Shown here piece after piece: positions 8,419 to 26,733 of a stretch of 64,000 nucleotides of DNA. Made by a program: the position numbers and the translations under genes. Origin of the DNA: Actinomyces trachealis (GTDB lineage Bacteria > Actinomycetota > Actinomycetes > Actinomycetales > Actinomycetaceae); NCBI RefSeq assembly GCF_015711475.1, contig NZ_CP065027.1:248001-312000 (forward strand). Direction: 5' to 3'. The notes under the pieces were generated by a model. That model was not told the DNA's origin. It saw nothing but the letters and a program-made list of their open reading frames with translations, and did no database searches. Every line of letters starts with the position of its first letter. The stretch's first letter is position 1.

Positions 8419-8452
8419 GGTTTTGTGGACAGTGATGAAAATCATGTTTGAT

Positions 8453-9355
8453 TTAGGCTGCTGTCTGGTTGCTGTACCATTCATTGTGGACTTTGTTCGG
8501 GGTTTTGTAGCCCAGTGTTGAATGGAGTCTGGTTTGATTGTAACAGGTTTCTATCCAGTGTGTCGCATCCTTGATTGCTTTGTCGCGGGTGGGGTAGATT
8601 TTCCGGTTGACTAGTTCTTTCTTCAGGGCGGCGTTGAAGGATTGAGCGGCGGCGTTGTCGTAACAGCTTCCCGTGCGTCCCAGTGATGGCTGGATGCCGT
8701 GTCGGGCCATGGCTTGGGCGTATTCTTCTGAGGTGTACTGGGATCCTTTGTCGGAATGGAAGATCGTGTGACCGGGTTCGGTCGGGCAGTTGCGTGTGGC
8801 CATGTCGAGAGCTTGAGTGACCAAACTGGTGCGCATGTAGGACGCGATGGCGTATCCGATGATCTTGCGTGAGTAGCAGTCCATCACCGTGGCCAGGTAG
8901 GCATGTCCGTCCCAGGTGGGGATGCAGGTGATATCACCGACCCACTTGTGTCCTGATGCCTGGGCAGTGAAGTCCCGCTGGACCAGATCAGGACGCGTCT
9001 GGATGCCCGTGGCCAGGATCGTGGTGCGGGGACGGGGCTGGCAGGCCACCAGTCCTTCCTGGAGCATGATCTTGCGGACCAGCTCCGACCCCACCTCAAT
9101 GCCGTTGCGGACCAGCATCGCGTGGATCCTGCGCTACCCGTAGGCCTGTTGTGACTGGTCGAAGAAGTGCCGGATCAGCACGATGAGTTCGTCTCGTCGT
9201 TTCTGCTGCTCGGAGAGTCCCCGACGCCACCACGCGTAGTAGCCCGACCTGGACACATCAGCCCATCTGCACATCAGGTACACCGGGTAATTGCCTTCTT
9301 CGCGATGAAGGCAGACGTACTTGAGGCTACCGGGACTCCCAGGCGAAGAAGGCCG
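8453..9355 (-). pseudogene. IS3-family transposase OrfB, nonsense mutation
   Basis: The DDE integrase domain of an IS3 transposase. The reading frame holds 'YLMCRWADVSRSGYYAWWRR' and the catalytic region: GDITCIPT (first Asp), 'HSDKGSQYTSEEY' (second Asp) and NAALKKEL (Glu). It ends in HSTLGYKTPNKV. An in-frame TAG at 9134-9136 replaces the tyrosine expected in YGYRRIHAML. The remaining open part (8453-9118) keeps the DDE residues but lacks the N-terminal helix-turn-helix half. Expression would need the usual programmed frameshift from orfA, which is itself stopped early. No other disabling change is seen, so inactivation looks recent. Confidence 0.9.
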
Positions 9356-11691: not shown

Positions 11692-12770
11692 GCGCCGACT
11701 CCTACCACACAGACCCGGCCTTGGCGCTGCCGATGGACCTGGGGGCGCCGTCGATGAGTGACGGCTTCCCGGCCGGGATGATGGCTGATCACCACCTCCT
11801 GCTGTTGGCCGACGACGTCACTGCCGATGAGGTTGAGGCCCTGACCCTGTCCATGGATCTGCACTCTGGTTGGGTTAGCGCTGGGCGGCTGCAGCTGGCC
11901 CCGGGGGCCTGCCTGTTGGGCCCTTGGCAGATCCCTGACGGTACGCACCAAGCCATTGGCCTGCCCGTCTGGGTCAGCCAGGTGATGGTGTTGGACTGCC
12001 CGCCTGAACGTTCTGGCCCGCTACCCCAGTGCATGCTGGGCCATGACCCGCTCATGGACTGCTTCCCGCAGGCGCAGCCCACCGGCCTGGAGCTGTTGGC
12101 CCTGCGTCGCCTGCGGGATATTGCTCGGCGTCTAGCTGGCGGTATCCGCGTGGCTCCTGGCGGTCAAGTGGTCACGCCTGACCCGGAGCGCTCCACCATG
12201 CTGGCGGTCTACTCCCCAGTTTGGTTGACGCCGGAGGCTGCTGAGGTGCTGTTGTCTCGCTTCTCCCTGGGGGTTGCTATGGGCGTGCATGTGGCAGCGG
12301 AGTCACGGGAGCAGATCGCGGCACAGACGGCGCAAGTGGACTTCAGTTCTCTGGCTGGTGTTGTGAGCCGCATTGAGATGGAGGCTGCTCAGGCGAAGGT
12401 ACGGGAGGATGCACTGCGTTCGGCGAATGAGGCTGCCGAGGCGGAACTGGATGGCTTCAGCATTGTCGTGCCGGTGGATCGCAGTCGTTCTGGCTGGGGT
12501 ACGGTTGATTTGCGGGTGCGTGGGGTGACGCAGCTGCCCTTGGCGGTGCTGGGTGAGTCGTGGGCTGGTGGCGAGGGCGCTATCTGCTACACGCTCACTT
12601 GGCAGCCGGTTGAGCCGGGTGAGGCTTTCGCGGAGGCACTGCCGGTTGGGCGGGCGGAGGAACGTCAGGCGGCCCGGGTGCTGATTGAGCGTCTGGCTTC
12701 GGCCGTGTATGGCGCGGTCGGTGGGGTGACCGTGGACGACTGCGGCTTCCTGGTCTCCCTGGAGGACTGA
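11688..12770 (+). CDS. Unknown protein coupled to dcd
   Basis: A 360-residue protein I do not recognise. The start ATG overlaps the dcd stop (ATGA), so the two are translated together. There is no signal peptide or membrane helix, and it looks cytoplasmic. Visible features are an acidic, Met-rich N-terminus and a stretch from about residue 215 that reads as a helix with heptad-like spacing ('[20 protein letters not shown]'), followed by a beta-rich C-terminal domain. No catalytic motif, zinc site or nucleotide-binding loop is evident. Coupling to a nucleotide-pool enzyme is the only clue to function. Base composition shifts toward GT-rich third positions in the second half. Confidence 0.8.
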
Positions 12771-12985: not shown

Positions 12986-13034
12986 GGCTGCCGACGAGGA
13001 AGCCGGTAGTTCCCCAATCCCATTGGAGCTTCGT

Positions 13035-16000
13035 ATGAGAACACAGAAGTCTCTGTGGCGCAGGACCATGGTAGGCACCTTCAGCGCCTTGGCGTTGGCG
13101 GGTGCGGTGTTCACGGTTCCCGCCACAACTGCCTCGGCCGTCCCCACCACGGACGGGCTGATGGACATCACGATCACGCAGGTGGACCCGCGGGCCGATG
13201 GTGTTTACGCCGTCGGTGAGACCCTCACCTATGACATCACCATTACCAATACCACCAACGAGGCGCACTCCTACGAGCTGGCCAGCACCAACCTTAGTGG
13301 TGGGGTCGCTAAGTGCAAGTGGCGTGAGATTGCGCCAGGGGGCACCAAGACTGACTGCGCTCGTCTGGCCACGCACAAGGTTACTGCCGAGGACATTGCG
13401 GCAGGCGGTTTTACCCCGGCGATCGCCTACTACGTGAAGGCCCCGCAGTATGTGGGGGCTGCTCTGAACCCCCAGCCGGAGACCATCAACGGTGAGAAGA
13501 CCGTGGTCAAGAGGGCAGCCGTCAGCGTTGAGTCGATTACGGTCTCCCCGGTAAAGGATTCCTATGACGTCGGCGATACCATCACCCTGACTCCCCGGAT
13601 TCGTTCGTTGTGGGACGCTAACACGACTATCTCTGTGCCTGAGTCGAACTTCGGTGTGACCACGGAGTGCAACTGGCGGAACCTGGGCACTGGCACGGGT
13701 GCTGTCTACAACTGCAAACCCGTCACCTACACGATCAAGCAGGCCGACGCCGAGTCTGGCTCCTGGACGCCGTCCCTCACCGTGAGGTCGGTGCTTGCCT
13801 CAGACAACTCCGAGCTGCACACCCTGACCTACAGGGGCGCGGCTCTGAAGGTGGTGGGCTCCTGGCCGCAGGCCCAGCCCGGCACCGCCCCCAGCGTGGA
13901 TGACACCCGGCCTGCCTCCCTGAGCGAGGCACAGGCCCTGGTGCGCAGCAGCGCCACAGACAACTACCGCATCCCTGCGATCGCCGTGGCCACCAACGGG
14001 GACCTGCTGGCCGCCTACGACGAGCGTCCCAAGGACAACGGCAACCATGGTGGTGACTCGCCGAACCCCAACCACATCATGCAGCGCCGCTCCAAGGACA
14101 ACGGCCGCACCTGGGAGGACCCGACCTACATCCACCAGGGCATTGAGACAGGCGCCAAGGAGGGCTACTCCGACCCCTCCTACGTGGTGGACTACACCAC
14201 TGGCAAGATCTTCAACTTCCACGTGAAGTCCTACGACGCCGGCTGGCCCCAGCCCAAGGCTGGCACCGACGCCAACGACCGTAGGGTCATGCACGCTGAG
14301 GTCTCCGTCTCCACCGACAACGGCTACACCTGGACCCACCGGGACATCACCGCTGAGGTGGACCAGGGCATCAACGCCCTCGCTCGTTTCGCGGCCTCCG
14401 GCCAGGGCATCCAGATCAAGAACGGCACGCACGCCGGGCGCCTGGTGCAGCAGTACACCGTCCGCCGGGCTGACGGCACTTTCCAGGCCGTCTCCCTGTT
14501 CTCCGACGACCACGGTGACACCTGGCAGGTCGGCACCCCGGTGGGCGTCGGCATGGACGAGAACAAGGTGGTCGAGCTGTCTGATGGCTCGCTGCTGATG
14601 AACTCCCGTGACTCCAAGAACAGCGGCTTCCGCAAGGTGGCGCACTCCACTGACGGCGGTCGCACCTGGGGGGAGGTGCGCGTGGATCGCAACCTGCCTG
14701 ACTCCACCAACAACGGCCAGATCATCCGCGCCTACCCCAACGCCGCCTCCTCCGACCCCAAGGCCCAGGTGCTGCTGTTCAGCAACGCTCCTGGCTCTGG
14801 CCGCACCCGGGGGACCATCTCCCTGTCCTGCAACAACGGAGACAGCTGGGTGCAGCGCAAGGTGTTCAACCAGGCCTTCACCGGCTACTCCACCATCGCG
14901 GTCCAGGCTGACGGCAGTATCGGTCTGCTGTCTGAGGACCAGGGCTACGGCGGTATCTTCTACCGCAACCTGTCCATGGCCTGGGTGGGGCAGGATTGCA
15001 CCCAGCCGAACGCTTCTGCTGCTGCCGCCGACAACACGGTCTACCCGGGTACCGGCACCACGGTGACCGTGACCGTGAAGAACCCGACCGGTACCGAGCT
15101 GACCGGTCTGAACGTGGCGGCACCCACCTCCGAAACGGTCACGGTGACCGCTACCGGTGATGTGCCGACGACGGTGCCCGCCCAGGGCCAGGCCGTCCTG
15201 ACCTTCTCCGTGCAGGCCAAGGGCGTGGGACCGGCCGAGCTGGTCTTCCCAGTCACCTACAACGGCGGCACCCTTCAGGCGTCTGTGAACCTGACCGCCA
15301 CGCGCGGCCCGGACGTCAGCCCGGAGGCGGTGGCCGCAGACTCCCAGGAGCTGACCGGTGAGACCCCTCCCAACGGCCCGGCCTCTGCGGCGGTTGACGG
15401 CGACCCCAACACCTTCTGGCATACCCAGTGGAAGAACCAGGCTCCTGGTTTTGACCCGAGCACGGGCCACTGGATCGACCTAAAGGTCAAGGAATCTGAC
15501 GTCCCGGCGGACCAGACCCCGCACGTCGTCGGCCTGAACTACACGGCGCGTCAGAACGCCAACATGGGCCGGGCTAAGGACTACAAGATCTTCACCTCTG
15601 CTGACGGTCAGATCTGGTCCGAGCAGCCGGTGGCCACCGGCACTCTGGCGGACACCGACACCCTGCAGCGCATTCCGCTGGACGTCAATGCCCGTTACGT
15701 GCGCTTCATGGCCATGAACAACTACTCCACCGGGAACGACGCCAAGTTCCTGGTGGCTGGTGAGATCAGCTTGACTCTGGACCGGAGCGCCCCGCAGCCG
15801 ACCCCGACCCCGGCTCCGACGTCGACGCCGGAGCCTGTGCCGACGGGTACTGGTGTGCCGGTGCCGGTGCCTGTGGTGATGCCTGCTTATGTGGCTAAGG
15901 TGCAGGCCAGCTCATCTGGGTTGGTACTCAAGGGTGATTGGGATGGTGATGGCAAGGACACTTATGCGGTGCGTGTGGGTACTCGGGTGGTGTTCTACAA

Positions 16001-16238
16001 CGAGAACCGTATTGATGCTCCGGTGTATGCCTCGATCTCGATTGGGCGTGGTGGTGACCAGGTGTTGGTTGGTGATTGGGATGGTGATGGCAAGGACACG
16101 TTGGCGTTGCGTCGTGGTAAGGCGGTGTTCTACCAGACCAGTTTGACTGGTACGGCTACCACCAAGGAGGTGTTGGGGTCTGGTGCGGTCAAGGTTGTCA
16201 CTGAGGGTGGCAGGGACAAGGTCGTGCTGACTAAGTGA
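13035..16238 (+). CDS. nanH: Secreted multidomain sialidase (GH33-like)
   Basis: A 1067-residue exo-sialidase releasing sialic acid from host glycans. A signal peptide is cleaved after about residue 35 (TASA). Two Ig-like domains follow. The catalytic beta-propeller begins at about residue 300 with the RIP motif (Tyr-Arg312-Ile-Pro). It holds five Asp-boxes: 'SKDNGRTW', 'STDNGYTW', 'SDDHGDTW', 'STDGGRTW' and a degenerate 'CNNGDSW', at about residues 353, 426, 490, 538 and 599. Next come an NPCBM/NEW3-like domain (655-745), a CBM32-type domain (765-915), a Pro/Thr linker and a C-terminal module with two DWDGDGKDT loops (949-1067). No LPXTG signal is present. ATG 13035 is preferred over 13023 because GGAG lies 7 bases upstream. 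Confidence 0.95.
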   Translation: MRTQKSLWRRTMVGTFSALALAGAVFTVPATTASAVPTTDGLMDITITQVDPRADGVYAVGETLTYDITITNTTNEAHSYELASTNLSGGVAKCKWREIAPGGTKTDCARLATHKVTAEDIAAGGFTPAIAYYVKAPQYVGAALNPQPETINGEKTVVKRAAVSVESITVSPVKDSYDVGDTITLTPRIRSLWDANTTISVPESNFGVTTECNWRNLGTGTGAVYNCKPVTYTIKQADAESGSWTPSLTVRSVLASDNSELHTLTYRGAALKVVGSWPQAQPGTAPSVDDTRPASLSEAQALVRSSATDNYRIPAIAVATNGDLLAAYDERPKDNGNHGGDSPNPNHIMQRRSKDNGRTWEDPTYIHQGIETGAKEGYSDPSYVVDYTTGKIFNFHVKSYDAGWPQPKAGTDANDRRVMHAEVSVSTDNGYTWTHRDITAEVDQGINALARFAASGQGIQIKNGTHAGRLVQQYTVRRADGTFQAVSLFSDDHGDTWQVGTPVGVGMDENKVVELSDGSLLMNSRDSKNSGFRKVAHSTDGGRTWGEVRVDRNLPDSTNNGQIIRAYPNAASSDPKAQVLLFSNAPGSGRTRGTISLSCNNGDSWVQRKVFNQAFTGYSTIAVQADGSIGLLSEDQGYGGIFYRNLSMAWVGQDCTQPNASAAAADNTVYPGTGTTVTVTVKNPTGTELTGLNVAAPTSETVTVTATGDVPTTVPAQGQAVLTFSVQAKGVGPAELVFPVTYNGGTLQASVNLTATRGPDVSPEAVAADSQELTGETPPNGPASAAVDGDPNTFWHTQWKNQAPGFDPSTGHWIDLKVKESDVPADQTPHVVGLNYTARQNANMGRAKDYKIFTSADGQIWSEQPVATGTLADTDTLQRIPLDVNARYVRFMAMNNYSTGNDAKFLVAGEISLTLDRSAPQPTPTPAPTSTPEPVPTGTGVPVPVPVVMPAYVAKVQASSSGLVLKGDWDGDGKDTYAVRVGTRVVFYNENRIDAPVYASISIGRGGDQVLVGDWDGDGKDTLALRRGKAVFYQTSLTGTATTKEVLGSGAVKVVTEGGRDKVVLTK

Positions 16239-16410
16239 TCATCTGATCGTGGTTCTAGGCCGCGGGTAGTGGCTGGGCTGACGGCCCGGGCTGACGGCCC
16301 GGGCTGACAGCTCTTAACCACAAACAACCACCTGGGCCCGGTGAGTCTCCCCCCAACCAAGGGCAAACCCACCGGGCCCAACCGCTATGGTCAACACATG
16401 ACCACCACCG
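15798..16410 (+). repeat. 613-base near-identical repeat, copy 1
   Basis: This copy covers the sialidase linker, its C-terminal module, the stop, the downstream intergenic region and the first four codons of a nitroreductase-like gene. It matches copy 2 (25342-25954) at a constant offset of 9544 bases with no insertion or deletion and only about half a dozen substitutions. Similarity drops sharply at 16410. Copy 1 holds the orphan gene start, so copy 2 is the likely source. Confidence 0.95.
16333..16380 (+). terminator. Sialidase terminator hairpin
   Basis: TGGGCCCGGTG pairs with CACCGGGCCCA over 11 bases around a ~26-base loop, about 95 bases after the sialidase stop. There is no T-tract. 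The same hairpin lies after the hexosaminidase gene inside copy 2 of the repeat. Confidence 0.5.
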
Positions 16411-16421
16411 CGAGCAGGTGA
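16398..16421 (+). pseudogene. Orphan 5' scrap of nitroreductase gene
   Basis: ATG ACC ACC ACC is identical to the start of the nitroreductase gene at 25942. The frame then runs off the repeat into unrelated sequence and stops at TGA after seven codons (MTTTASR). The promoter-like TATGGT in front is copied too, so a short transcript may still be made. Confidence 0.75.
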
Positions 16422-16510
16422 CCGTGAGTGCGCCCCCCCTGTTAGGGCAAGGTGCAGCTCCCCGGGCAAGCGCTGGGCGCTTGGTTGTCTGAACGAGGGG
16501 GAGTCAAGTC

Positions 16511-17269
16511 TCACTGGGCCCGGTGCCGCACATGCGGCGGGCGACGGCGCAGCAGTCCCGCCTGCGCCAGAGCGGCCGCCTCATCCCAGGACCAGCCCAC
16601 CAAACCGGCAGCAGCCTCCAACCCGGCCGCCCAAGGCTCCTGATCGCCCCGCTCAGCGGCCACCATCAGGTAGTGGCGCAGCAGCCCGGCGCTGGCGCGG
16701 GCGTCGTTGAGAGCAGTGTGGTGCTGTGCCAGCCGCACCCCCGCCACCTCACAACAGCACACCAAGGAGCACGATGGCGTCATCATGAAGCTCCGCGCTG
16801 AGCGCATCGTGCACACCTGCGGCAGCTCAGTACCCTCCTCAAGCCATCCGCCCGCCACCAGCGTAGGCACCAGGAACCCCAGGTCAAAGCGCGTGTTGTG
16901 TGCCACGAGCACTCGCCCAGCCAGGCTGCGCGCCAACAGGTCAGAGACTGACGCGAGCGTCGGCGCCCCGCGCAGGTACTCCAGCTCGATTCCGTGGATG
17001 TGCTTAGGGTCCACATCCTCCAGATCAGGTACACCTATCAGTGAGGTCCAGGCGTACTCCTCACGCCCGCAGGGGTCCAGCAGCACCAGCCCCACCTCGA
17101 TCACGTGGTCACGCTGGGGGGACAGGCCCGTGGTCTCTACGTCAACGACGGCGTAGCCGTGCCGCCCTGTGCCTGCGGCCTGTGGAAGGCGGCCTGGATC
17201 TGGACCCGAAGCTGTGAACATCGTCTGGATCGTAGGCCATAGGTCCGTTAAGTAAAGAAGAGTCCGCAA
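16511..17269 (-). CDS. DnaQ-like 3'-5' exonuclease
   Basis: A DEDDh-family exonuclease. Visible are motif I 'VVDVETTGLS' (Asp43, Glu45), 'AHNTRFDLGFLVPTL' (motif II Asp) and 'HHTALNDARASAGLL' (motif III His and Asp). All five catalytic positions are present. It resembles the epsilon proofreading subunit of DNA polymerase III, but the central region is Cys-rich ('SCSLVCCCEVAGVRLAQ') and there is no extra domain. A stand-alone repair or RNA-trimming nuclease is equally possible. It diverges from the beta-galactosidase gene across a 197-base gap. The start could also be the internal ATG at 17221; the longer form is kept without a strong ribosome-site argument. Confidence 0.85.
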   Translation of the reverse strand: MRTLLYLTDLWPTIQTMFTASGPDPGRLPQAAGTGRHGYAVVDVETTGLSPQRDHVIEVGLVLLDPCGREEYAWTSLIGVPDLEDVDPKHIHGIELEYLRGAPTLASVSDLLARSLAGRVLVAHNTRFDLGFLVPTLVAGGWLEEGTELPQVCTMRSARSFMMTPSCSLVCCCEVAGVRLAQHHTALNDARASAGLLRHYLMVAAERGDQEPWAAGLEAAAGLVGWSWDEAAALAQAGLLRRRPPHVRHRAQ

Positions 17270-17332
17270 GATCTGGTTATGGCTCTATAACATGAGCGCA
17301 ACTGGTGGTAGATTCGCCAAGCGTGCAGAACA

Positions 17333-17358
17333 GATCAGATGCGACGGTGCGTCTGATC
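17333..17358. promoter_or_regulatory. Palindromic operator candidate upstream of GH35
   Basis: GATCAGATGCG and GTGCGTCTGATC form an imperfect 26-base inverted repeat in the gap between the exonuclease and beta-galactosidase genes, about 108 bases before the latter's start. The outer arms GATCAGA/TCTGATC are exact. The half-site CGTCTGA also occurs in the sialidase palindrome. Confidence 0.45.
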
Positions 17359-17466
17359 GACTGCTTTCCCCGATATCTCGCTGGTTCGCGCCTTTGAAGG
17401 CCTCTTGCGCCCAAAAGCGCTTGCCAGCGTCCGATAACTCCCCATCCATGACCCGGAGGTGTGACA

Positions 17467-20400
17467 ATGCCGTCCCCCAACCCAGCCACCTCAAGCCAGG
17501 CAGGTCGTCGGCGTAATCGACGCCGATCCGCAGGAGTCACCCTGGCGCTGGTTAGTGCCCTCGCCTTCACCGGCGCGGGGCTGCCAACCGCCACCGCCGC
17601 GCCTACCGGGGATGCCGCCGCTCACCCTGGCCTGGCCGCCGTGAACCGCTACACCCCTGCCAACATCAGCTTCCCCGGCAACGACGGCAAAGCCCACACC
17701 GTCACCTATGACAAGAACTCCTTCATGATCGACGACCAGCGGCTGTCCATCTGGTCTGGGGAGATCCACTACTGGCGTCTGCCTGACGTCAACGGCTGGC
17801 GGGACATCTTCCAAAAGATGCGCGCCAACGGCTACAACGCCGTCTCCCTCTACATGTTCTGGGGCCTGCACCAGAGCGAGGAGAACGGGGCCTTCGACTT
17901 CAGCCCTGGCACCATCAAGGACCTGGACCTCTTGCTGACCCTGGCTGAGGAGGAGGGTCTCTACGTCATCGCCCGCCCTGGCCCCTACGTCAACGCCGAG
18001 ATCTCCATGGGCGGCCTACCCGCCTACATGAGCAACTATGGCGGCGGCCTGCGCTCCATGGACGCCAAGGCCCTGGCTGCCTCCAAGTCCTGGCTGACCG
18101 CCGCCAACGAGATCATTGCCAAGCACCAGGTCACCACTGGTGGTGGCTCCGTGCTGGTCTACCAGGTAGAGAACGAGCTGGTGGACGGCAACAACCAAGA
18201 CTATCAGTTCCTTGCCGAACTCACCAAGCACGTCAAGAGCACCGGCATCACCGTGCCCCTGTTCCACAATGACTGGAACCTGGCTGGCCGCCTAAAGGAC
18301 ACTAACCGCACCGGCCTGAACTTCTACGCCTACGACGCCTACCCCGTGGGCTTCAACTGCTCTGCCGCTCGCAATCAGATCGGTGACTCCGAGACCACCT
18401 TCCACACCTACTCGCCCAACTCGCCCAACTTCATCACCGAGTCCCAGGGTGGCGCCTTTACCCCCTGGGGTGCCAGCTACAACGCTTCAGACTGCTACGC
18501 CTACACTGACGAGGCCTTCACCCGGCAGTGGGGCGTGAACAACATCGGCAACGGCGTCACCGCTTTCAACTCCTACATGGCCTACGGTGGCACCAACTGG
18601 GGCTGGACCGGTTCCCCGGCCTCCGGCTTCACCTCCTACGATTACGGCGCAGGCATTACCGAGGATCGCAAGCTCACCCCCAAGGCCTCCGTCCAGAAGG
18701 AGATCGGCTACTACCAGCGTGCCGTCCCACAGGTCGCCTCCATGGACGCGGTGGCAGCCCCCCGGGCCTCTGTCAGCTCGGGCGGCAGCGTCAAGGCCTA
18801 CCAGCGGCAGGCCACTGACAAGGCCTCCTCCGCTACCGGCAACGGCTCGCGCACCATCGCCCTGCGCTTGGATAATTCCAACGACACCAGGGAGACCGCC
18901 TTCACCATCCCGCTGAACCTGGGAGCCTCCCAGATTGCGTCACCCACCGGCTTCAGCCACGACGACCGTGACGCCGCCATCAAGTACACCGGCACCTGGA
19001 GCCAGGTGGAGGACAGCACCGCCGCTAAAGGCACGGTCACTCGCTCCACTACGGTGGGGGACACCGCCAGCTTCCAGTTCCAGGGCACGGGCGTGGCACT
19101 GTTGGTGGCTACCGGCACGGACCACGGCTCCTTTGAGGTGAGCATTGACGGTGGCGCTCCCACCACCGTTACCAGTGCCACCGTTGCTACAGAGCAGAAC
19201 AAGCCCACCCAGTTCAAGGCTTTCGAGGTTAAGGACCTGGGTGCTGGCTCGCACACCATCACAGTCAAGAACCTCGGCGGGGCTACCGGCAATGTCCTAG
19301 ACATTGACGCCTTCGACGTCGTGGCTCCGGCCGCCAGCAAGCCGGTCGAAATTAACGACGCCGACACCAGCACCATCACCTACACCGGCAGTTGGGAGCA
19401 CGCCTCCGGCAAGCCTTGGACTGCCGGGGACATCAACCAGGACGAGTCCTTCTCCAAGGTGGCTGGCGACTCCTACACCTTCACCTTCACCGGCGTCGGT
19501 TTTGACCTGGTGGCCCCCTACTCCGTCAACCACGGCTCCGCCACCGTCACCGTAGACGGCGTGGAAGTTGGCAAGACCCAGGAGCAGGTGACCGGGAATC
19601 CCGCCCCACAGAAGACCATCTTCTCTTGGCGTGCCGCAGACACCTCCACTCCCGCGAGCCACACCGTCAAAGTGACCGTGGACGGCATCGCCTTCCCCGG
19701 TTCCGAGGACGTGTACGTGCCGCTCGACGCCGTGCGCTACTACCCGGACGCCACCTCCCTGCCCTCTGACCCCGGTACCGTTCCCTCAGGCACCATCGGC
19801 TGGAGTCGCATCCCGCAGAAGGAAGGCACCAGCCTCACGCTGCATGGCCGTGACGCCCTCCTACTCACCGCCGACACCAAGGTTGCTGGGCACGAGTTGT
19901 ACTACACCACCTCTCAGCTCTTCGCTGAGCCCATCGCCATGGACACCGCCACCGTCCAGTATCTAGTAGGTGCCGACGGCGACGCCGGGGAGACCGTGCT
20001 GCACTACGCCGCCGAGCCCACCGTTAACGCCCCCAGCGGCGTCGAAAAGACCTGGGACGCGGCGCGTGGAGAGCTGCGGCTGAACTACACCCACGGCGCC
20101 GAGCCGCAGGACGTCACCATCACCGCCGCAGGCAAGAACCCACTGACCCTGCGCCTGATCAACCGCACCACGGCCCAGACCACCTGGATGCTCACTGCCA
20201 TGAAGGACGGCAAGGCGACGCCGGTGGCTGTCGAGGGCGTAGAACTGGCCCGCACCGCCACCTTTGAAGGCACCAAGCTGGCGCTGACTGGATCGGTTTC
20301 CCAGGCCTCCAACCTGCGGGTCCTGGCCCCGGCTGGCACCACCGCAGTCACCTGGAACGGTGCTGACTTGGGGGCCCTCACGCAGGGCGTGAGCACCTCC

Positions 20401-21924
20401 AGCCTGACTGGCCCGGCTGCTGTGGCCGAGCAGACGCTGTCCTTCGTCAAGCAGGAGGACAACGCCTACGCCGCCGTAGACTACGACGACTCCGCCTGGA
20501 CCACCGCTGACGACACCGCCTCCAAACAGTCTGAGGACTATCAGGGCATCATCCGCTACGCCAACCGTGATCGGAACCAGCAGGGTCCAGGTGAGGCAGG
20601 CGTAGTCCTGGACTCCAACCACTACGGCTTCCACAACGGCTCGGTCTGGTACCGCGCCCACTACACCGCCGCTACTAACGACCCAACCTTGAGCATCAAG
20701 GCCACCGCTTCCAATGGCGCGCCCGGTCAGGGCAAGAACCCTGGCTTCGCTCAGGTCTGGGTTAACGGCAAGTACGCCGGTGCTGTCTCCGCCAAGGGTG
20801 GTTGGGAACGCGTCCAGTCTCCAGCTGGCTCAGTGAAGGCTGGGCAGCCCGTGGTGGTGGCTGTACTGGTCAACAACCTGGGAATCAGCCTGGACTGGAA
20901 CAACGGTGCTTGGGGATCCGCCTCCCAGTCCAAGGAGAACCGAGGACTCTACGACGCCAGGCTCAATGCCTCCGGTCCCGTGACCTGGAAGATCATGGGC
21001 GCCCCCACCACCTCTGCCAAGGACCCGGCCAACCCCTCAGGCACCATCTACAACAACGGTGGCCTTCAAGGTGAGAAGGCTGGCTGGTACGGCAGAACCT
21101 TCGATGACTCCGCCTGGGCGCCTGCCACAGACCTGCACGCCGCCACCCCCGGCGTCACCTGGTACCGCGCCAAGGTCAACCTGGATGTTCCAGAGGGGCA
21201 GGACACGGCCTTCCGCCTGAACCTGAACTCCGCGAGCTTCGCCTCCCGGGCGGACCACTCACAGGCGACGATCTTCGTCAATGGCTGGAACACCGGCGTG
21301 TACATCGGGGACATGGGCCCGCAGAACTCCTTCACCGTTCCGCAGGGCTTCCTGAACCTCAAGGGCGAGAACACGATCGCCATCGCCGTGGCCTCCAAGG
21401 AGGCCGGTGCGGGGCCGGACTCGGTGACGCTCACCGCCGTCCACTCCACCACCATGCCGCAGGTCAAGGCCGCGCCTGAGCCGGATCCGGGGCAGCCCAC
21501 CGCTACTCCAAGCTCTGCGCCAACCGCTACTCCAACCGTCAACCCGGAGCCGCCGACGGGAACCATGCCGGCCTATGTTGCCAGCCTCAAGGGCAATGAC
21601 AAGGCCCAGTTGCTGCTGGGTGACTGGAACGGTGACGGTACCAAGACCTATGCGGCCCGCGTGGGCACCCGCGTGGTCTTCTACAACGAGAACCGCACGG
21701 ACGCCCCCGTCTACGCCTCCATCTCGATTGGCCGTTCCACGGACAAGGTCTACGTGGGTGACTGGGACGGCGACCACAAGGACACCTTGGCCCTACACCG
21801 TGGCACCTCGGTGTACTACCAGACCCACCTGACAGGCACGGCTACGACGAAGGGTGCCGCTCCCGGCCGCGGCCCCCTGAAAGTCGTCCGGGAAGGTGAC
21901 AAGGACGTGCTCACCGCCCAGTGA
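17467..21924 (+). CDS. Secreted GH35 beta-galactosidase, multidomain
   Basis: A 1485-residue secreted beta-galactosidase that would remove galactose exposed after desialylation. ATG 17467 follows GGAGGT with good spacing. An Arg-rich start and hydrophobic segment form a signal peptide ending near TATAAP. The GH35 barrel holds 'SGEIHYWRLPD' and 'RPGPYVNAE'. It also holds 'YQVENELVDG', with Glu237 the likely acid/base, and 'FITESQGG', with Glu325 the likely nucleophile. About 900 residues of beta-sandwich domains follow, including galactose-binding-like folds. A Pro/Thr linker and a C-terminal DWNGDG/DWDGDH module close the protein. This module is homologous to that of the sialidase and GH20 enzymes but clearly diverged in DNA. 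No anchor signal is seen. Confidence 0.93.
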   Translation: MPSPNPATSSQAGRRRNRRRSAGVTLALVSALAFTGAGLPTATAAPTGDAAAHPGLAAVNRYTPANISFPGNDGKAHTVTYDKNSFMIDDQRLSIWSGEIHYWRLPDVNGWRDIFQKMRANGYNAVSLYMFWGLHQSEENGAFDFSPGTIKDLDLLLTLAEEEGLYVIARPGPYVNAEISMGGLPAYMSNYGGGLRSMDAKALAASKSWLTAANEIIAKHQVTTGGGSVLVYQVENELVDGNNQDYQFLAELTKHVKSTGITVPLFHNDWNLAGRLKDTNRTGLNFYAYDAYPVGFNCSAARNQIGDSETTFHTYSPNSPNFITESQGGAFTPWGASYNASDCYAYTDEAFTRQWGVNNIGNGVTAFNSYMAYGGTNWGWTGSPASGFTSYDYGAGITEDRKLTPKASVQKEIGYYQRAVPQVASMDAVAAPRASVSSGGSVKAYQRQATDKASSATGNGSRTIALRLDNSNDTRETAFTIPLNLGASQIASPTGFSHDDRDAAIKYTGTWSQVEDSTAAKGTVTRSTTVGDTASFQFQGTGVALLVATGTDHGSFEVSIDGGAPTTVTSATVATEQNKPTQFKAFEVKDLGAGSHTITVKNLGGATGNVLDIDAFDVVAPAASKPVEINDADTSTITYTGSWEHASGKPWTAGDINQDESFSKVAGDSYTFTFTGVGFDLVAPYSVNHGSATVTVDGVEVGKTQEQVTGNPAPQKTIFSWRAADTSTPASHTVKVTVDGIAFPGSEDVYVPLDAVRYYPDATSLPSDPGTVPSGTIGWSRIPQKEGTSLTLHGRDALLLTADTKVAGHELYYTTSQLFAEPIAMDTATVQYLVGADGDAGETVLHYAAEPTVNAPSGVEKTWDAARGELRLNYTHGAEPQDVTITAAGKNPLTLRLINRTTAQTTWMLTAMKDGKATPVAVEGVELARTATFEGTKLALTGSVSQASNLRVLAPAGTTAVTWNGADLGALTQGVSTSSLTGPAAVAEQTLSFVKQEDNAYAAVDYDDSAWTTADDTASKQSEDYQGIIRYANRDRNQQGPGEAGVVLDSNHYGFHNGSVWYRAHYTAATNDPTLSIKATASNGAPGQGKNPGFAQVWVNGKYAGAVSAKGGWERVQSPAGSVKAGQPVVVAVLVNNLGISLDWNNGAWGSASQSKENRGLYDARLNASGPVTWKIMGAPTTSAKDPANPSGTIYNNGGLQGEKAGWYGRTFDDSAWAPATDLHAATPGVTWYRAKVNLDVPEGQDTAFRLNLNSASFASRADHSQATIFVNGWNTGVYIGDMGPQNSFTVPQGFLNLKGENTIAIAVASKEAGAGPDSVTLTAVHSTTMPQVKAAPEPDPGQPTATPSSAPTATPTVNPEPPTGTMPAYVASLKGNDKAQLLLGDWNGDGTKTYAARVGTRVVFYNENRTDAPVYASISIGRSTDKVYVGDWDGDHKDTLALHRGTSVYYQTHLTGTATTKGAAPGRGPLKVVREGDKDVLTAQ

Positions 21925-21934
21925 GCGCCTGAGC

Positions 21935-21982
21935 GGGATGCGGCCCTGCGTCCTCCCCAGCGCAGGGCCGCCCCCGCATCCC
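21935..21982 (+). terminator. Hairpin between GH35 and GH20 genes
   Basis: CGGCCCTGCG (21941-21950) pairs exactly with CGCAGGGCCG (21961-21970). An alternative outer pairing joins GGGATGCGG with CCGCATCCC. It starts 11 bases after the beta-galactosidase stop. No T-tract follows, so partial read-through into the GH20 gene 99 bases away is possible. Confidence 0.55.
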
Positions 21983-22023
21983 AAAACTCCCCAACCCCAA
22001 CTCCAGGAAGTGAGGAAGGAACA

Positions 22024-25000
22024 ATGAAGATCCGACCCACCAGCCGTCTGGCCCGCTTCTGCGCGGTCACGGCAGCCCTAGCTATGAGCGGACTGGGGGT
22101 GAGCGCAACCGTCCCCGGTCTGGTATCTCAGGCCGCTGCAGCAGAGGCCGCCAACGTCGCCCTGGCCTCGGCAGGAGCCACGGTCACCGCCTCCGGCACT
22201 GAGGTAGCAGGTAAATGGCAACCCGGCGCCGCCATTGACGGCAGTGCCTCCAAAGATTCCCGTTGGTCCTCCGAACACAGCGACCATGCCTGGATCGCCG
22301 TCCAGCTGGCCCAGCCCACCACCATTGATCATGTGACCATCCGTTGGGAGGAGGCCTGCGCCGCCAAATACCACCTAGAGGTCTCCAACGACGGCCAGGC
22401 TTGGACCCGTGCCACGGACACCATCAGTCCTACCTGTGGCAGCAAGGACGTCCAGACCCTCAAGGCGGAAGTCGCCTCCCAGCAGTGGAAGTACGTAAAG
22501 ATGCAGGCCGAGGCCCGCACCTTTGTGGCTGGCGGCTACTGGGGCGTCTCCCTGTACGAGCTGGAGGTGTGGAACGGGGCTGAGACGGTCCCCGTCCCCA
22601 GCAACGTGAATCTGTTGCCCTTGCCCGTCAACCTCACGGACAACTCCGCCACCCAGCAGCCTTTCACCCTCAAGCCCACTTCACGTGTGGTGGTCACTGG
22701 GGCACAGGGCGGCCCCGCCGCGAAGATCCTGGCTGCTGAGCTAAGTGCCGCCACCGGCTACAGCATCCAGGTGGCAGAAGGCGGTACACCTACGGCCGAC
22801 GACGTCGTCCTGGCTACCGGTGCCGTAGAGATCAACACCGGTCGCGCTGAGGAAGCCTACTCCCTGACCACTAGCAGCACGGGTGCCGTCATCACCGCCA
22901 ACACTGAGAAGGGCATGTTCTATGGCACCCGCACCCTCAAACAGCTGTTTCCCGCAGCCATTGAGTCGCCCACTGCCGTGAGCCAGGCCTGGGTCGCGCC
23001 CGCCGTCGCCGTCACCGACGCGCCGCGCTACGAGTACCGTTCGCTGATGCTCGACCCCGCCCGCTCCTTCCTGACAGTGGAAGAGGTCAAGAAGATCATT
23101 GACGAGATCTCTGACCTCAAAATGAGCTCTCTGCACCTGCACTTGGCCGACGACCAAGGCTGGCGCATCGAGATCACCAACGAGGGTCGCGAGGCCGGTG
23201 ACACCATCGACTACACCAAGCTCACCGAGATCTCCGGCAAGACGGCCATGAACATGCATGACCACGCCCCCGCCAACGAGCTTGGCCGCACCGGCTACTA
23301 CACCCAGGCACAGTACCGGGACCTGGTGGCCCACGCCTCCGCCAAGCACGTCACCGTGATCCCCGAGATCGACCTGCCCGGCCACACCAACGCTGCCCTG
23401 CACGCCATTCCCGAGCTCAACACCGCCGGGTCCTCCCACCCAGGTACCGCTGAGGAGCCCACGGCCCCCGCCAACGGCACCGGCGCCGTCGGCTACTCAT
23501 ATCTGGACCCCAACTCCCCAGCGGCCGACGCCTTCATCAAGCACGTGCTCAAGCAGGTCGCTGACATGACCACCGGCCCGTACATTCACGTTGGTGGGGA
23601 CGAGTCCCACAGCTTCGTGGAACGCTACGGCGTGAACGCCTTCAACCAGTACGTCGCGAAGATTGGTGGTTTCCTCAAGGAGACCGGCAAGCACCGCATC
23701 GGCTGGAACGAGATCGCCTCCAGCACCCTGGAGAACGGCGACGGCGTCCAGTACTGGGTTGGTAACACCGCCAACGTCAGGCGCGCCGTCGCCCAGGAAG
23801 GCGCTAAAGTCCTCATGTCCAAGGGCAACGCTGCCTACCTGGACCAGAAGTACACACCAAAGACACCGATCGCCCTGAACTGGGCCTGCTCCGGTGACTG
23901 TGATGTACGGCACTACTATGACTGGGATCCCGCCACGGTCATCCCCGGCGTCACGGACGCCAACATCCTTGGTCCGGAGGGTCCGCTGTGGTCTGAGACC
24001 CAGCGCGGTGCTGACCAAACGGAGTTCCTTATGTGGGGCCGCCTGGCCAGCCACGCCGAGATCGGGTGGTCTGAGCAGGCTGACCGCAATGTGGATGACT
24101 TTGTGGGCCGCCTGGCTGCCCAGGGGGCTCGTTGGAACTTTGAGAACTCCAACTTCTACGACTCGCCACAAGTGACCTGGGGCTTCGACCTGGCAGGCAC
24201 CGCCGGCCTGACCCTGGCTACCGGCGCGGAAGCCACCGTGCCAGTGGGCGTGCTCGCGGCTCCCGGCACCAAGACTGACGGCGGCTCAATTTCTGTGGAC
24301 TCCGTTAACGACGCCGACGGTGCCTCTGCCTCAGCGGTGCCTGCAGGCTCTAAGGTGACCATCAACTGGGGTGACGGCAGTGCCCCCACCGAGGCCACCA
24401 TCAGTGCCCGCACGCCCCGTGACGCCTACAACGCCGCTGGCCTCTACACCCTGGCTGGCACCCACCGTTACGCCACCGCAGGCGACTTCGACGTCACCCT
24501 CACTTTCGCGGGCAAGACTGTGACCACCAAGGCGCATGTGGTTGACGGGGCTTCCTCCACCCCGCTGCCTCCCAGCTGGGACTCCTCGGTGCAGGCTGCC
24601 GCTGATGTGCCGGACACTGATTTCGCCGTCGGGGACCGGGTGCCCATGGGTATCACTGGCTTCCCGCCGAACAGCTTCGTCACCATCAAGATCGGTGACA
24701 CCCTGCTGGGCACCTTCCGCACCGACGCCAATGGTGAGCGCACCGGCCAGTTCGTGAACATCCCAGCGACGGTTACCAGCGGGCAGGGTCAGGACCTGAC
24801 TTTCACCGCTGGTGACCGGGTGGTGACGATTAAGGTCAATGTCACCGGTGGCCGGGTGGCGCTGGACAACCCGCTGCCGACCGGCAGTCTTACGCTCGCC
24901 GACTACGACTCTGAGGAGAAAACGGGCGAGACCGCGCCAAATGGTCTTGCAAGCTCTGCCATAGACGGCAACCCAGCCACCTTCTGGCACACCAAGTGGC

Positions 25001-25782
25001 AGGGGGACGCGGATTCCTTCCCGCACTACATCTCCTTGGGCCTGCCCCAGGACAAGACCTGCAAGGTAACCGGCTTCGAGTACACCGGGCGCGCGGGCAA
25101 CCCCAACACCCGTGTCAAGGACTATGAGCTGCAGGTCTCGGTGGATGGGCAGAAGTGGACAACAGTCCACACTGACACGCTGGCGAACCACGATGTTCCG
25201 CAGGCCGTGAACCTCCCGGCTGACAAGCAGCAGACAGCGAAGTTCGTGAAGATGGTCCAGAAGAACTCCCACAACGGTGACGCCTTCGGCGGTGCCGCGG
25301 AGATCCGCGTGGGCGCCATCTGCACCGAAGGGACGCCGGCCCCGACCCCGACCCCGGCCCCGACGCCGACGCCGGAGCCTGTGCCGACGGGTACTGGTGT
25401 GCCGGTGCCGGTGCCTGTGGTGATGCCTGCTTATGTGGCTAAGGTGCAGGCCAGCTCATCTGGGTTGGTACTCAAGGGTGATTGGGATGGTGATGGCAAG
25501 GACACTTATGCGGTGCGTGTGGGTACTCGGGTGGTGTTCTACAACGAGAACCGTATTGATGCTCCGGTGTATGCCTCGATCTCGATTGGGCGTGGTGGTG
25601 ACCAGGTGTTGGTTGGTGATTGGGATGGTGATGGCAAGGACACGTTGGCGTTGCGTCGTGGTAAGGCGGTGTTCTACCAGACCAGTTTGACTGGTACGGC
25701 TACCACCAAGGAGGTGTTGGGGGCTGGTGCGGTCAAGGTTGTCACTGAGGGTGGCAGGGACAAGGTCGTGCTGACCAAGTGA
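22024..25782 (+). CDS. Secreted GH20 beta-N-acetylhexosaminidase, multidomain
   Basis: A 1252-residue secreted enzyme removing terminal GlcNAc/GalNAc. A signal peptide (to about residue 40) precedes a CBM32-like domain (45-195), a GH20b domain (200-335) and the catalytic barrel (340-700). The barrel holds the motif 'YIHVGGDESHSF', in which Asp526 and Glu527 are the catalytic pair of substrate-assisted hydrolysis, together with 'HLADDQGWRIE' and 'VIPEIDLPGHTNAAL'. A PKD-like domain (~755-840), an Ig-like segment, a second CBM32 (~955-1095), a Pro/Thr linker and the DWDGDGKDT module (1135-1252) complete it. The linker and module are copy 2 of the repeat shared with the sialidase. A strong GAGGAAGG ribosome site precedes ATG. 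Confidence 0.95.
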   Translation: MKIRPTSRLARFCAVTAALAMSGLGVSATVPGLVSQAAAAEAANVALASAGATVTASGTEVAGKWQPGAAIDGSASKDSRWSSEHSDHAWIAVQLAQPTTIDHVTIRWEEACAAKYHLEVSNDGQAWTRATDTISPTCGSKDVQTLKAEVASQQWKYVKMQAEARTFVAGGYWGVSLYELEVWNGAETVPVPSNVNLLPLPVNLTDNSATQQPFTLKPTSRVVVTGAQGGPAAKILAAELSAATGYSIQVAEGGTPTADDVVLATGAVEINTGRAEEAYSLTTSSTGAVITANTEKGMFYGTRTLKQLFPAAIESPTAVSQAWVAPAVAVTDAPRYEYRSLMLDPARSFLTVEEVKKIIDEISDLKMSSLHLHLADDQGWRIEITNEGREAGDTIDYTKLTEISGKTAMNMHDHAPANELGRTGYYTQAQYRDLVAHASAKHVTVIPEIDLPGHTNAALHAIPELNTAGSSHPGTAEEPTAPANGTGAVGYSYLDPNSPAADAFIKHVLKQVADMTTGPYIHVGGDESHSFVERYGVNAFNQYVAKIGGFLKETGKHRIGWNEIASSTLENGDGVQYWVGNTANVRRAVAQEGAKVLMSKGNAAYLDQKYTPKTPIALNWACSGDCDVRHYYDWDPATVIPGVTDANILGPEGPLWSETQRGADQTEFLMWGRLASHAEIGWSEQADRNVDDFVGRLAAQGARWNFENSNFYDSPQVTWGFDLAGTAGLTLATGAEATVPVGVLAAPGTKTDGGSISVDSVNDADGASASAVPAGSKVTINWGDGSAPTEATISARTPRDAYNAAGLYTLAGTHRYATAGDFDVTLTFAGKTVTTKAHVVDGASSTPLPPSWDSSVQAAADVPDTDFAVGDRVPMGITGFPPNSFVTIKIGDTLLGTFRTDANGERTGQFVNIPATVTSGQGQDLTFTAGDRVVTIKVNVTGGRVALDNPLPTGSLTLADYDSEEKTGETAPNGLASSAIDGNPATFWHTKWQGDADSFPHYISLGLPQDKTCKVTGFEYTGRAGNPNTRVKDYELQVSVDGQKWTTVHTDTLANHDVPQAVNLPADKQQTAKFVKMVQKNSHNGDAFGGAAEIRVGAICTEGTPAPTPTPAPTPTPEPVPTGTGVPVPVPVVMPAYVAKVQASSSGLVLKGDWDGDGKDTYAVRVGTRVVFYNENRIDAPVYASISIGRGGDQVLVGDWDGDGKDTLALRRGKAVFYQTSLTGTATTKEVLGAGAVKVVTEGGRDKVVLTK

Positions 25783-25954
25783 TCATCTGATCGTGGTTCT
25801 AGGCCGCGGGTAGTGGCTGGGCTGACGGCCCGGGCTGACGACCCGGGCTGACAGCCCTTAACCACAAACAACCACCTGGGCCCGGTGAGTCTCCCCCCAA
25901 CCAAGGGCAAACCCACCGGGCCCAACCGCTATGGTCAACACATGACCACCACCG
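25342..25954 (+). repeat. 613-base near-identical repeat, copy 2
   Basis: Second copy of the repeat at 15798-16410. Here it runs from the GH20 linker through the module, intergenic region and hairpin into the first codons of a complete nitroreductase gene, so this is probably the donor copy. Within the module the third codon positions favour T (GGT GAT), unlike the C-rich GH20 body. Confidence 0.95.
25877..25924 (+). terminator. GH20 terminator hairpin
   Basis: The same 11-base stem (TGGGCCCGGTG with CACCGGGCCCA) as behind the sialidase, placed 18 bases before the nitroreductase start. It may both end the GH20 transcript and lie inside the nitroreductase promoter region. Confidence 0.5.
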
Positions 25955-26733
25955 ACCTCAGGACCCCGAACCGCGCCCCCTTGGACAACCCCACCATCCG
26001 TACCCAGATGGCTCACCGCACCATCCGGGCCTACACCGATGAGCCGCTGGCTGACGACGTCGTTACCACGCTCCTGGAGGTGGCCCGCCACGCTGCTACC
26101 TCCTCTTTCAAGCAACAGCTGACCATCATCCGCGTGCTTGACCCGACCGTGCGCGAGCAGATCCACGCCGCCTCCGGTCAGCCCTACGTCGGCGGCACCG
26201 CTGGGGAACTCTTCGTCCTAGTGGCGGACCTGCACCGCAACGCCTGGCTGCGTGAGCGCGCTGGTGCGGACCTTGCTCCCTTGGAGACCACCAACCTCTT
26301 CCTGGCCGCTGTGGAGGACGTGCTGCTGGCCGCCCAGAATATGGTGCTTGCTGCTGAGTCCCTGGGGCTGGGCACCTGCTACCTGGGCTCGATCCTGGCC
26401 AACCCCAGACTGGTTATCTCCGCGCTCGGCCTACCGGAGCGGACCTTCCCGGTGCTGGGCCTGCTGGTGGGCCACAGCGCTGAGGAGCCCCAGTACAAGC
26501 CGCGACTGCCCTTGTCCGTGACCACCAGCATCGACACCTACCCGGACCCAGCCGCCCACGCGGAGGAGATCACTGCCTACGACCAGGTGGTGCAGCAGTA
26601 CTACGACCTGCGTGACACCAATCAGCGCCTGGACTCCTTCACCCACCAGATCATCACAGCACTCGGCAAAGGGCCTGCCGAACGAACCCCGCTGCTGGGA
26701 GTGCTGCACGAGCAACGCCTCTGCTTGCGCTGA
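25942..26733 (+). CDS. Nitroreductase-family FMN oxidoreductase
   Basis: A 263-residue nitroreductase (NfsA/FRP-like). Near the N-terminus 'HRTIRAYTDEPLADDVVTTL' is the family's FMN-phosphate-binding start. 'AAQNMVLAAESLGLGTCYLG' and the PERTFPVLGLLVGH stretch are the second conserved region. These enzymes reduce nitroaromatics, quinones or flavins with NAD(P)H. The frame is open to 25885, but ATG 25942 gives the expected N-terminus. TATGGT 6 bases before this ATG suggests a leaderless transcript, since no ribosome site is visible. The first four codons belong to the duplicated segment. The next gene starts 1 base after the stop. Confidence 0.88.
   Translation: MTTTDLRTPNRAPLDNPTIRTQMAHRTIRAYTDEPLADDVVTTLLEVARHAATSSFKQQLTIIRVLDPTVREQIHAASGQPYVGGTAGELFVLVADLHRNAWLRERAGADLAPLETTNLFLAAVEDVLLAAQNMVLAAESLGLGTCYLGSILANPRLVISALGLPERTFPVLGLLVGHSAEEPQYKPRLPLSVTTSIDTYPDPAAHAEEITAYDQVVQQYYDLRDTNQRLDSFTHQIITALGKGPAERTPLLGVLHEQRLCLR

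Follow-up and report, generated by a model that had tools for sequence, protein, structure and literature searches.

Why two glycosidase genes of different kinds should end in almost the same DNA, down to the first codons of a third gene, is the question raised by a 64,000 nt stretch of the Actinomyces trachealis genome (GCF_015711475.1, contig NZ_CP065027.1, forward strand, 248,001 to 312,000; hereafter "the window"). Window positions 15798-16410, at the end of a sialidase gene (GH33), and 25342-25954, at the end of a hexosaminidase gene (GH20a), form an ungapped 613-base alignment at an offset of 9544 with six mismatches (99.0% identity), as a preliminary description of this DNA had reported. 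That description was also accurate on the contents of the repeat: each copy runs through a linker, a C-terminal module, the stop codon, a strong terminator-like hairpin (-30.5 kcal/mol, z -4.3), a TATGGT motif and ATGACCACCACC, the first codons of a nitroreductase gene, and behind the sialidase these codons lead nowhere (ATG ACC ACC ACC GCG AGC AGG TGA, or MTTTASR-stop, 16398-16421). Two changes, one of them synonymous and the other not, separate the tail codons of the copies, and no other repeat family of at least 40 nt was found in the window (seed 16). The evidence below makes it very probable that the repeat is an instance of segmental concerted evolution by recurrent ectopic gene conversion.

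The pair belongs to a larger set. The A. trachealis genome (G000; 2,526,250 bases in one contig, C1) carries five near-identical copies of the tail (94-100%), on GH33, GH20a, GH20b, GH29 and a GH84-type enzyme, with the three copies outside the window 94-98% identical to that of GH20a. At the protein level the tail was found 12 times, in 11 intact genes and one fragment; the enzyme types of its hosts are backed by Pfam. One of the 11 is of the GDSL-lipase/laminin-G type and is not a glycosidase, and the GH16 Pfam match of one scores under its cut-off. The GH35 gene between the two window copies is included and holds a diverged version (21484-21783, 60% identity without gaps). The fragment (C1:1488807-1488944; loci L014, 4646-4972, and L027) is a decayed 108-codon frame from which the enzyme is absent. 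In all five near-identical copies, 13-base units (CCCGGGCTGACGR) lie 3' of the stop codon (window 16280-16309 and 25824-25853), their number being lowest in GH29 and highest in GH84; the part of the GH20a copy in which they lie forms a strong fold (-47.4 kcal/mol, z -4.4). Near-full-length copies of the 3' flank occur behind these five tails only, with two short weak hits elsewhere (one behind GH101), and the idea of a free mobile 3' repeat was rejected for this reason.

The tails were compared with those of three sister species of the same genus (G033, G012 and G016). The genus set comprised 49 genomes, A. trachealis included, and 17 of these had any tail match at E 0.001; the three sisters carry many tails of the single C-terminal form (10, 8 and 7 matches, respectively). 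The comparison used 33 of 37 matches, leaving out the G012 GH35 tail and two G016 tails (missed by the search pattern) and the decayed fragment. We take the labels GH13, GH101, GH85, GH33 and GH20c from sequence or similarity as presumed identities, and the same applies to exonuclease, LPXTG, CWB2, GW-type repeat and transposase. Across the four genomes the host parts of the enzymes pair by orthology, whereas the tails do not. For GH33, GH20a and GH20b, identity between A. trachealis and the G033 and G012 orthologs is 66-83% in the host parts; their orthologous tails are 64-74% identical among these genomes. Within genomes, by contrast, tail codons are 98.6-100% identical in five genes of A. 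trachealis, 87-98% in four genes of G033, 97.8% in two genes of G012 (88-89% for a third) and 97.4% in two genes of G016. Orthologous grouping in the tail tree was rejected by the approximately unbiased (AU) test for GH33 (p 7e-49), GH20a (p 2e-47) and GH20b (p 2e-6); the GH85 tails follow orthology (support 100/97). Overlapping sets of unrelated glycosidase tails and 3' flanks are homogenised in all four species, in the sisters with sequences of their own, and the process is recurrent.

Two other explanations can be judged on these data. Purifying selection on the protein, with no exchange of DNA, would agree with the nearly identical tail proteins and with the wide conservation of the GDWDGDG motif. 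It is refuted because silent sites and about 145 untranslated bases are nearly identical among the five copies as well, and orthologous tails have diverged in their DNA; we give it practically no credence. It is also very improbable that the five enzymes arrived together by whole-gene horizontal transfer from a donor with a common tail. Compared with the sister species, GH29 and GH84 do have the look of foreign genes, and GC content at third codon positions (GC3) is lower in the tails than in the host parts, but the host parts of GH33, GH20a and GH20b have the orthologs described above, the order of the GH33-GH35-GH20a cluster is kept, and orthology is broken in the tails only.

The borders of the shared DNA are mostly uniform. 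In nine of the ten A. trachealis pairs, DNA is shared from between -423 and -450 as far as the 3' limit of the terminator hairpin. This limit falls at +145 to +147 when counted in GH33, GH20a and GH20b, at +132/+134 when counted in GH29 and at +170/+172 when counted in GH84, the last two differing because the number of 13-base repeats varies. Only the GH33/GH20a pair reaches +172 and so shares the last 25 bases. GH33 and GH20a also run far past the terminator in G033 (+188/+209), where four other aligned pairs of the homogenised set end at +86 to +88; sharing extends to +436/+414 for GH20a/GH20b in G012 and to +79/+74 for GH33/GH35 in G016. In G012, GH20a (L094) and GH13 (L095) are both followed, at differing distances and outside the tail tract, by a further stretch of 117 bases that is 97% identical between the two.

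Common borders, the finding of GH29 and GH84 in none of the three sister genomes (so that their tails look added) and the confinement of the near-full-length 3' flank to five tails would each suit a recent spread of a cassette, in which a tail-plus-terminator unit was copied once into each gene by an insertion-like mechanism without ongoing conversion. We consider this improbable, and the sister genomes already largely refute it. First, the GH33, GH20a and GH20b tails are orthologously placed in the sisters already, and G033, G012 and G016 have homogenised sets of their own. Second, mosaics with internal breakpoints occur in G033 and G012: the G033 sialidase tail is 100% identical to the adjacent GH35 tail over its first 60 columns and 88-98% identical to that of GH20a in later windows, and the G012 GH13 tail equals that of GH20a at 100% over about 210 columns and is unlike it at both ends. 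Such breakpoints in two genomes support conversion. Third, among the five A. trachealis copies, site +126 is incompatible with sites -255 and +74 on one tree, as would be expected from repeated exchange, although chance recurrence is also possible at individual sites. Finally, inspection of the alignments of the copies by eye showed neither terminal inverted repeats nor target duplications, nor a recombinase at the borders, no dedicated search having been made.

A longest-run permutation test (all pairs of the four genomes, 1000 permutations) gave 0/1000 for G033 GH33/GH35, G033 GH33/GH20c and G012 GH13/GH20a, 6/1000 for G033 GH33/GH20b and 4/1000 for G012 GH13/GH20b; in A. trachealis the pairs at ≤10/1000 were GH35/GH101 (0) and GH85/GH16 (10). 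Several points weigh against recurrent conversion as the explanation. The permutation values are uncorrected, G033 GH33/GH20a is not among the pairs at ≤10/1000, and neither is any homogenised A. trachealis pair or any pair from G016; uniformly similar pairs cannot give such a signal. The tails of GH101 and GH13 take an intermediate position, in that ortholog monophyly was marginally rejected for GH101 (AU, p 0.047) and rejected for GH13 (p 0.0014), of which the G012 member is a mosaic. In the tree the homogenised sets of A. trachealis and G033 form one group (83/99, drawn open), so that the two may have a GT-rich donor in common. For the copied 3' flank to reach each locus for the first time, the exchange must have ended outside the homologous DNA, and ordinary gene conversion does not provide for this. 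Lastly, the comparison is one between species, each represented by a single genome.

A very probable explanation for the whole pattern is nevertheless gene conversion of the following kind. Eleven intact, apparently secreted enzymes, mostly glycosidases, end in a common kind of tail, a unit made up of a Pro/Thr linker, a piece of about 118 residues predicted to form 2.5 blades of the VCBS type and the stop codon, in many cases followed by a terminator hairpin. Tails at different loci would undergo homologous recombination, presumably of the RecA type, by which one is overwritten with another, and tracts usually span linker to terminator, these being the limits of homology. In A. trachealis five different enzymes now have one tail sequence, and the three sisters undergo the same process with other sequences. 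One tract passed the terminator by 25 bases and brought the promoter of the nitroreductase gene, with its first codons, from behind GH20a to behind the sialidase, and the tail was likely also grafted onto GH29, and probably GH84, which are apparently new to the lineage.

Gene order bears on the direction of that last movement. The order GH33, exonuclease-like gene (other strand), GH35, GH20a and nitroreductase is conserved in all four genomes, with the nitroreductase behind GH20a and the minus-strand exonuclease-like gene behind GH33 in each. ATGACCACCACC was found within 400 nt downstream of three of the 33 tail genes: GH20a and GH33 of A. trachealis and GH20a of G033. Because the order is kept in four genomes, having a nitroreductase start after the sialidase is the derived state, and the source of the far 3' end was the DNA behind GH20a. 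The G016 GH20a homolog (62% identity over 1022 residues; L100, 14822-18633, between GH35 and nitroreductase) is split across reading frames, at its start and before the tail, by decay or sequence error. The donor of the whole 613 bases may have been a copy other than GH20a: site +74 of GH33 is shared with GH29 and GH84 and not with GH20a and GH20b; the GH33 copy also has private changes at -59, -6 and +59. The direction first proposed, from GH20a to the sialidase, therefore holds for the last 25 bases, and site +74 disagrees with it for the body of the tract. That the copying took flanking as well as coding DNA is confirmed by the terminator and nitroreductase start within the tract. The proposed shuffling of a module between two genes did not survive: five copies are homogenised rather than a pair, and the sialidases of G033, G012 and G016 already end in a homologous, diverged tail, so the A. 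trachealis sialidase gained no foreign module. Of the two alternatives "replaced or added", it is replacement, of one homologous tail by another, that stands. Relatives had been expected to have a sialidase with a different tail and no orphan start, and this was found, in sister species rather than in strains; a full nitroreductase gene behind the sialidase, named as the refuting case, is absent from all four genomes, where the exonuclease-like gene occupies that place. The TATGGT lies six bases before the ATG at both sites (25930-25944 and 16386-16400), a distance pointing to a leaderless transcript of the nitroreductase gene, and the copy of the promoter after the sialidase might still be active.

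As GH29 and GH84 were found in none of the three sister species, the tail was likely grafted onto GH29, and probably onto GH84, as genes apparently new to the lineage. GH29 was found in 1/49 genus genomes (E 1e-60) and in 7/396 genomes of the order (E 1e-50, A. trachealis included). Four GH29 homologs, of seven other loci, were inspected: one has an LPXTG-like end (L225), one has wall-binding-like repeats (L223) and two have nothing at that place (L226 and L227). All four share the same short last domain, and the idea that the tail truncates the GH29 protein was dropped. GH84 occurs in 11/49 genus genomes, and its nearest homolog (50% identity) ends in a LAKTG-type signal. GH33 was found in 25/49 genus genomes; 19 other GH33 loci comprised ten with sortase-type signals, two with repeats, three with the same tail and four unread. 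Sortases gave three matches in A. trachealis. Because homologs carry sortase-type or wall-binding-like ends at the place of the tail, we infer that it may be a cell-surface or glycan-binding attachment module.

The structure prediction for the tail is of high confidence (predicted local distance difference test score, 97), and the model is a 2.5-blade piece of a beta-propeller of the VCBS/PVL-lectin type, with two four-stranded blades and a hairpin in a single chain, a DxDxDG loop (here DWDGDG) and PVL as its top structural match. As a single chain it does not form the closed propeller of 5-7 blades. FG-GAP_3 (PF13517) matches weakly in nine of ten tail members (best E 3e-4). The PF13517 gathering score was missed (16.6 bits for the first member vs 26.9), and in the Pfam and NCBIfam searches no model scored above its cut-off on the tail; NCBIfam and a PDB sequence search with the tail gave no hit. 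The loop and the four-stranded blades are as in VCBS-type propellers (PF13517; PVL lectin, "VCBS actinolectins"), whose members are full propellers in the available part of one treatment of the family (PMC8023676). The tail differs from these in being a 2.5-blade C-terminal attachment to enzymes with a Pfam score below the cut-off.

The homogenised tails are also unusual in base composition. Mean GC3 is 69% in the 14 homogenised tails vs 88% in the other 19, and the coding strand of the homogenised tails is rich in GT (difference within genomes 0.14 on average, 0/10,000 permutations, a count that overstates the support because rows within a set are near-copies and the A. trachealis and G033 sets may share an origin). 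Host parts show no GT difference, and the tail difference in G012 is small (0.06). The homogenised set ranks first for GT in all four genomes, for which, with each set counted once, the chance is 1/7 x 1/7 x 1/5 x 1/4. GT-richness as a sufficient cause was rejected, since window positions 12463-12762 are about as GT-rich and yet unique in the genome. Positions 8445-8744, also GT-rich, lie within a presumed IS3-like transposase gene (8453-9118, minus strand), which is among the most base-skewed stretches of the window. In G012, the DNA 200-400 bases behind the GH101 stop codon (L097) is very GT-rich (0.71-0.81), like the 3' DNA of G012 GH20a and GH20b. GT-rich strands are preferred by RecA and resemble Chi sites. 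A rather unlikely extension is that the tail serves as a recombinogenic universal plug, in which GT-rich codon choice (third-position T or G for C) makes a hot spot and 2.5-blade tails might jointly close a propeller. Such a hot spot would keep the attachment part uniform over the enzyme set and graft it onto newly acquired enzymes, and jointly closed propellers would build mixed enzyme assemblies, rewarding identical tails.

Homogenisation is not general to the tail family, because the multi-blade relatives in Actinotignum match better between genomes (best matches 88-95%) than within a genome (67-72%), a comparison of tail matches alone. In the other genera listed (pairs of at least 150 nt, at most eight per genome), within-genome tail pairs are 67-81% identical among the matches listed, with adjacent copies in Georgenia (91-93%) and Oceanitalea (90%) as exceptions. 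Two within-genome pairs of multi-blade tails from metagenome-assembled genomes of Clostridiales (L166/L171, 86.7% alike over 645 nt, and L119/L126, 98% alike over 213 nt) may represent a further case in another phylum.

Table 1. Positions of the genes, repeat copies and flanking elements (window coordinates unless prefixed by C1)
Feature	Position	Strand	Remarks
GH33-type sialidase gene	13023..16238	+	signal-peptide-like start; presumably GH33 from BNR_2, BNR_3 and F5_F8_type_C matches; C-terminal tail
Sialidase Pro/Thr linker and tail module, first repeat copy	15798..16238	+	module proper 15882-16238
Copied 3' untranslated stretch	16239..16384	+	CCCGGGCTGACGR 13-base repeats and terminator-like hairpin; stem 16333-16380
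Orphan start region	16385..16421	+	TATGGT 16386-16391; seven-codon mini-open reading frame 16398-16421; copied part ends 16410
Exonuclease-like gene	16511..17269	-	label presumed from sequence; behind GH33 in all four genomes
GH35 beta-galactosidase gene	17461..21924	+	diverged, non-homogenised tail about 21568-21924
GH20 hexosaminidase gene (GH20a)	22024..25782	+	Pfam
GH20a linker and tail module, second repeat copy	25342..25782	+	module proper 25426-25782
GH20a 3' untranslated stretch and terminator-like hairpin	25783..25929	+	stem 25877-25924
TATGGT and nitroreductase gene	25930..26733	+	TATGGT 25930-25935; start ATG 25942; homologs behind GH20a in four genomes
GH20b tail copy	C1:1619333-1619918	-	genome DNA comparison
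GH29 (fucosidase) tail copy	C1:2102432-2102994		genome DNA comparison
GH84-type enzyme tail copy	C1:1825805-1826417		genome DNA comparison

These results indicate that a bacterium can hold one attachment-like part identical across a set of enzymes and fit newcomers with it, apparently by homologous recombination inside the tail and not by a mobile element. They mark an uncharacterised tail at the place where relatives have sortase or wall-binding-like ends, and the four species, with Actinotignum as a contrast, offer a natural replicated system in which to study ectopic conversion tracts, where they end and how they relate to base composition. The literature search returned, within the portions of the sources available, no description of such tails, nor of tails homogenised across glycosidases of different kinds.

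Segmental concerted evolution itself is already known, and a 2002 study by Pride and Blaser is said to be the original one of bab segment homogenisation in Helicobacter pylori. In the accessible part of a report on babA/babB and homA/homB of that species, a 3' segment is homogenised within the strain, which is ascribed to intragenomic gene conversion, and segment 1 is orthologous (PMC2795765), and bab chimeras are described in part of another (PMC4552749). As in those genes (segment 3), only the 3' segment is homogenised here and the remainder is orthologous. In contrast to the bab and hom genes, which are described there as paralogs of one outer-membrane family, the hosts here are different enzymes (some sharing F5/8C besides the tail), up to five genes are involved, and the tract takes in the terminator as well as, in one case, the start of the next gene. 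Long-lasting concerted evolution in prokaryotes has been described for 26 genes, with within-species paralogs more alike in several lineages and synteny as proof (PMC6053082, in the part available). The tails resemble those cases in that paralogous copies are recurrently more alike within than between species. They differ in that the unit is a C-terminal module with untranslated DNA rather than a gene (22 of those 26 are in stable complexes), shared here by different glycosidases and extending in one instance to the start of the next gene.

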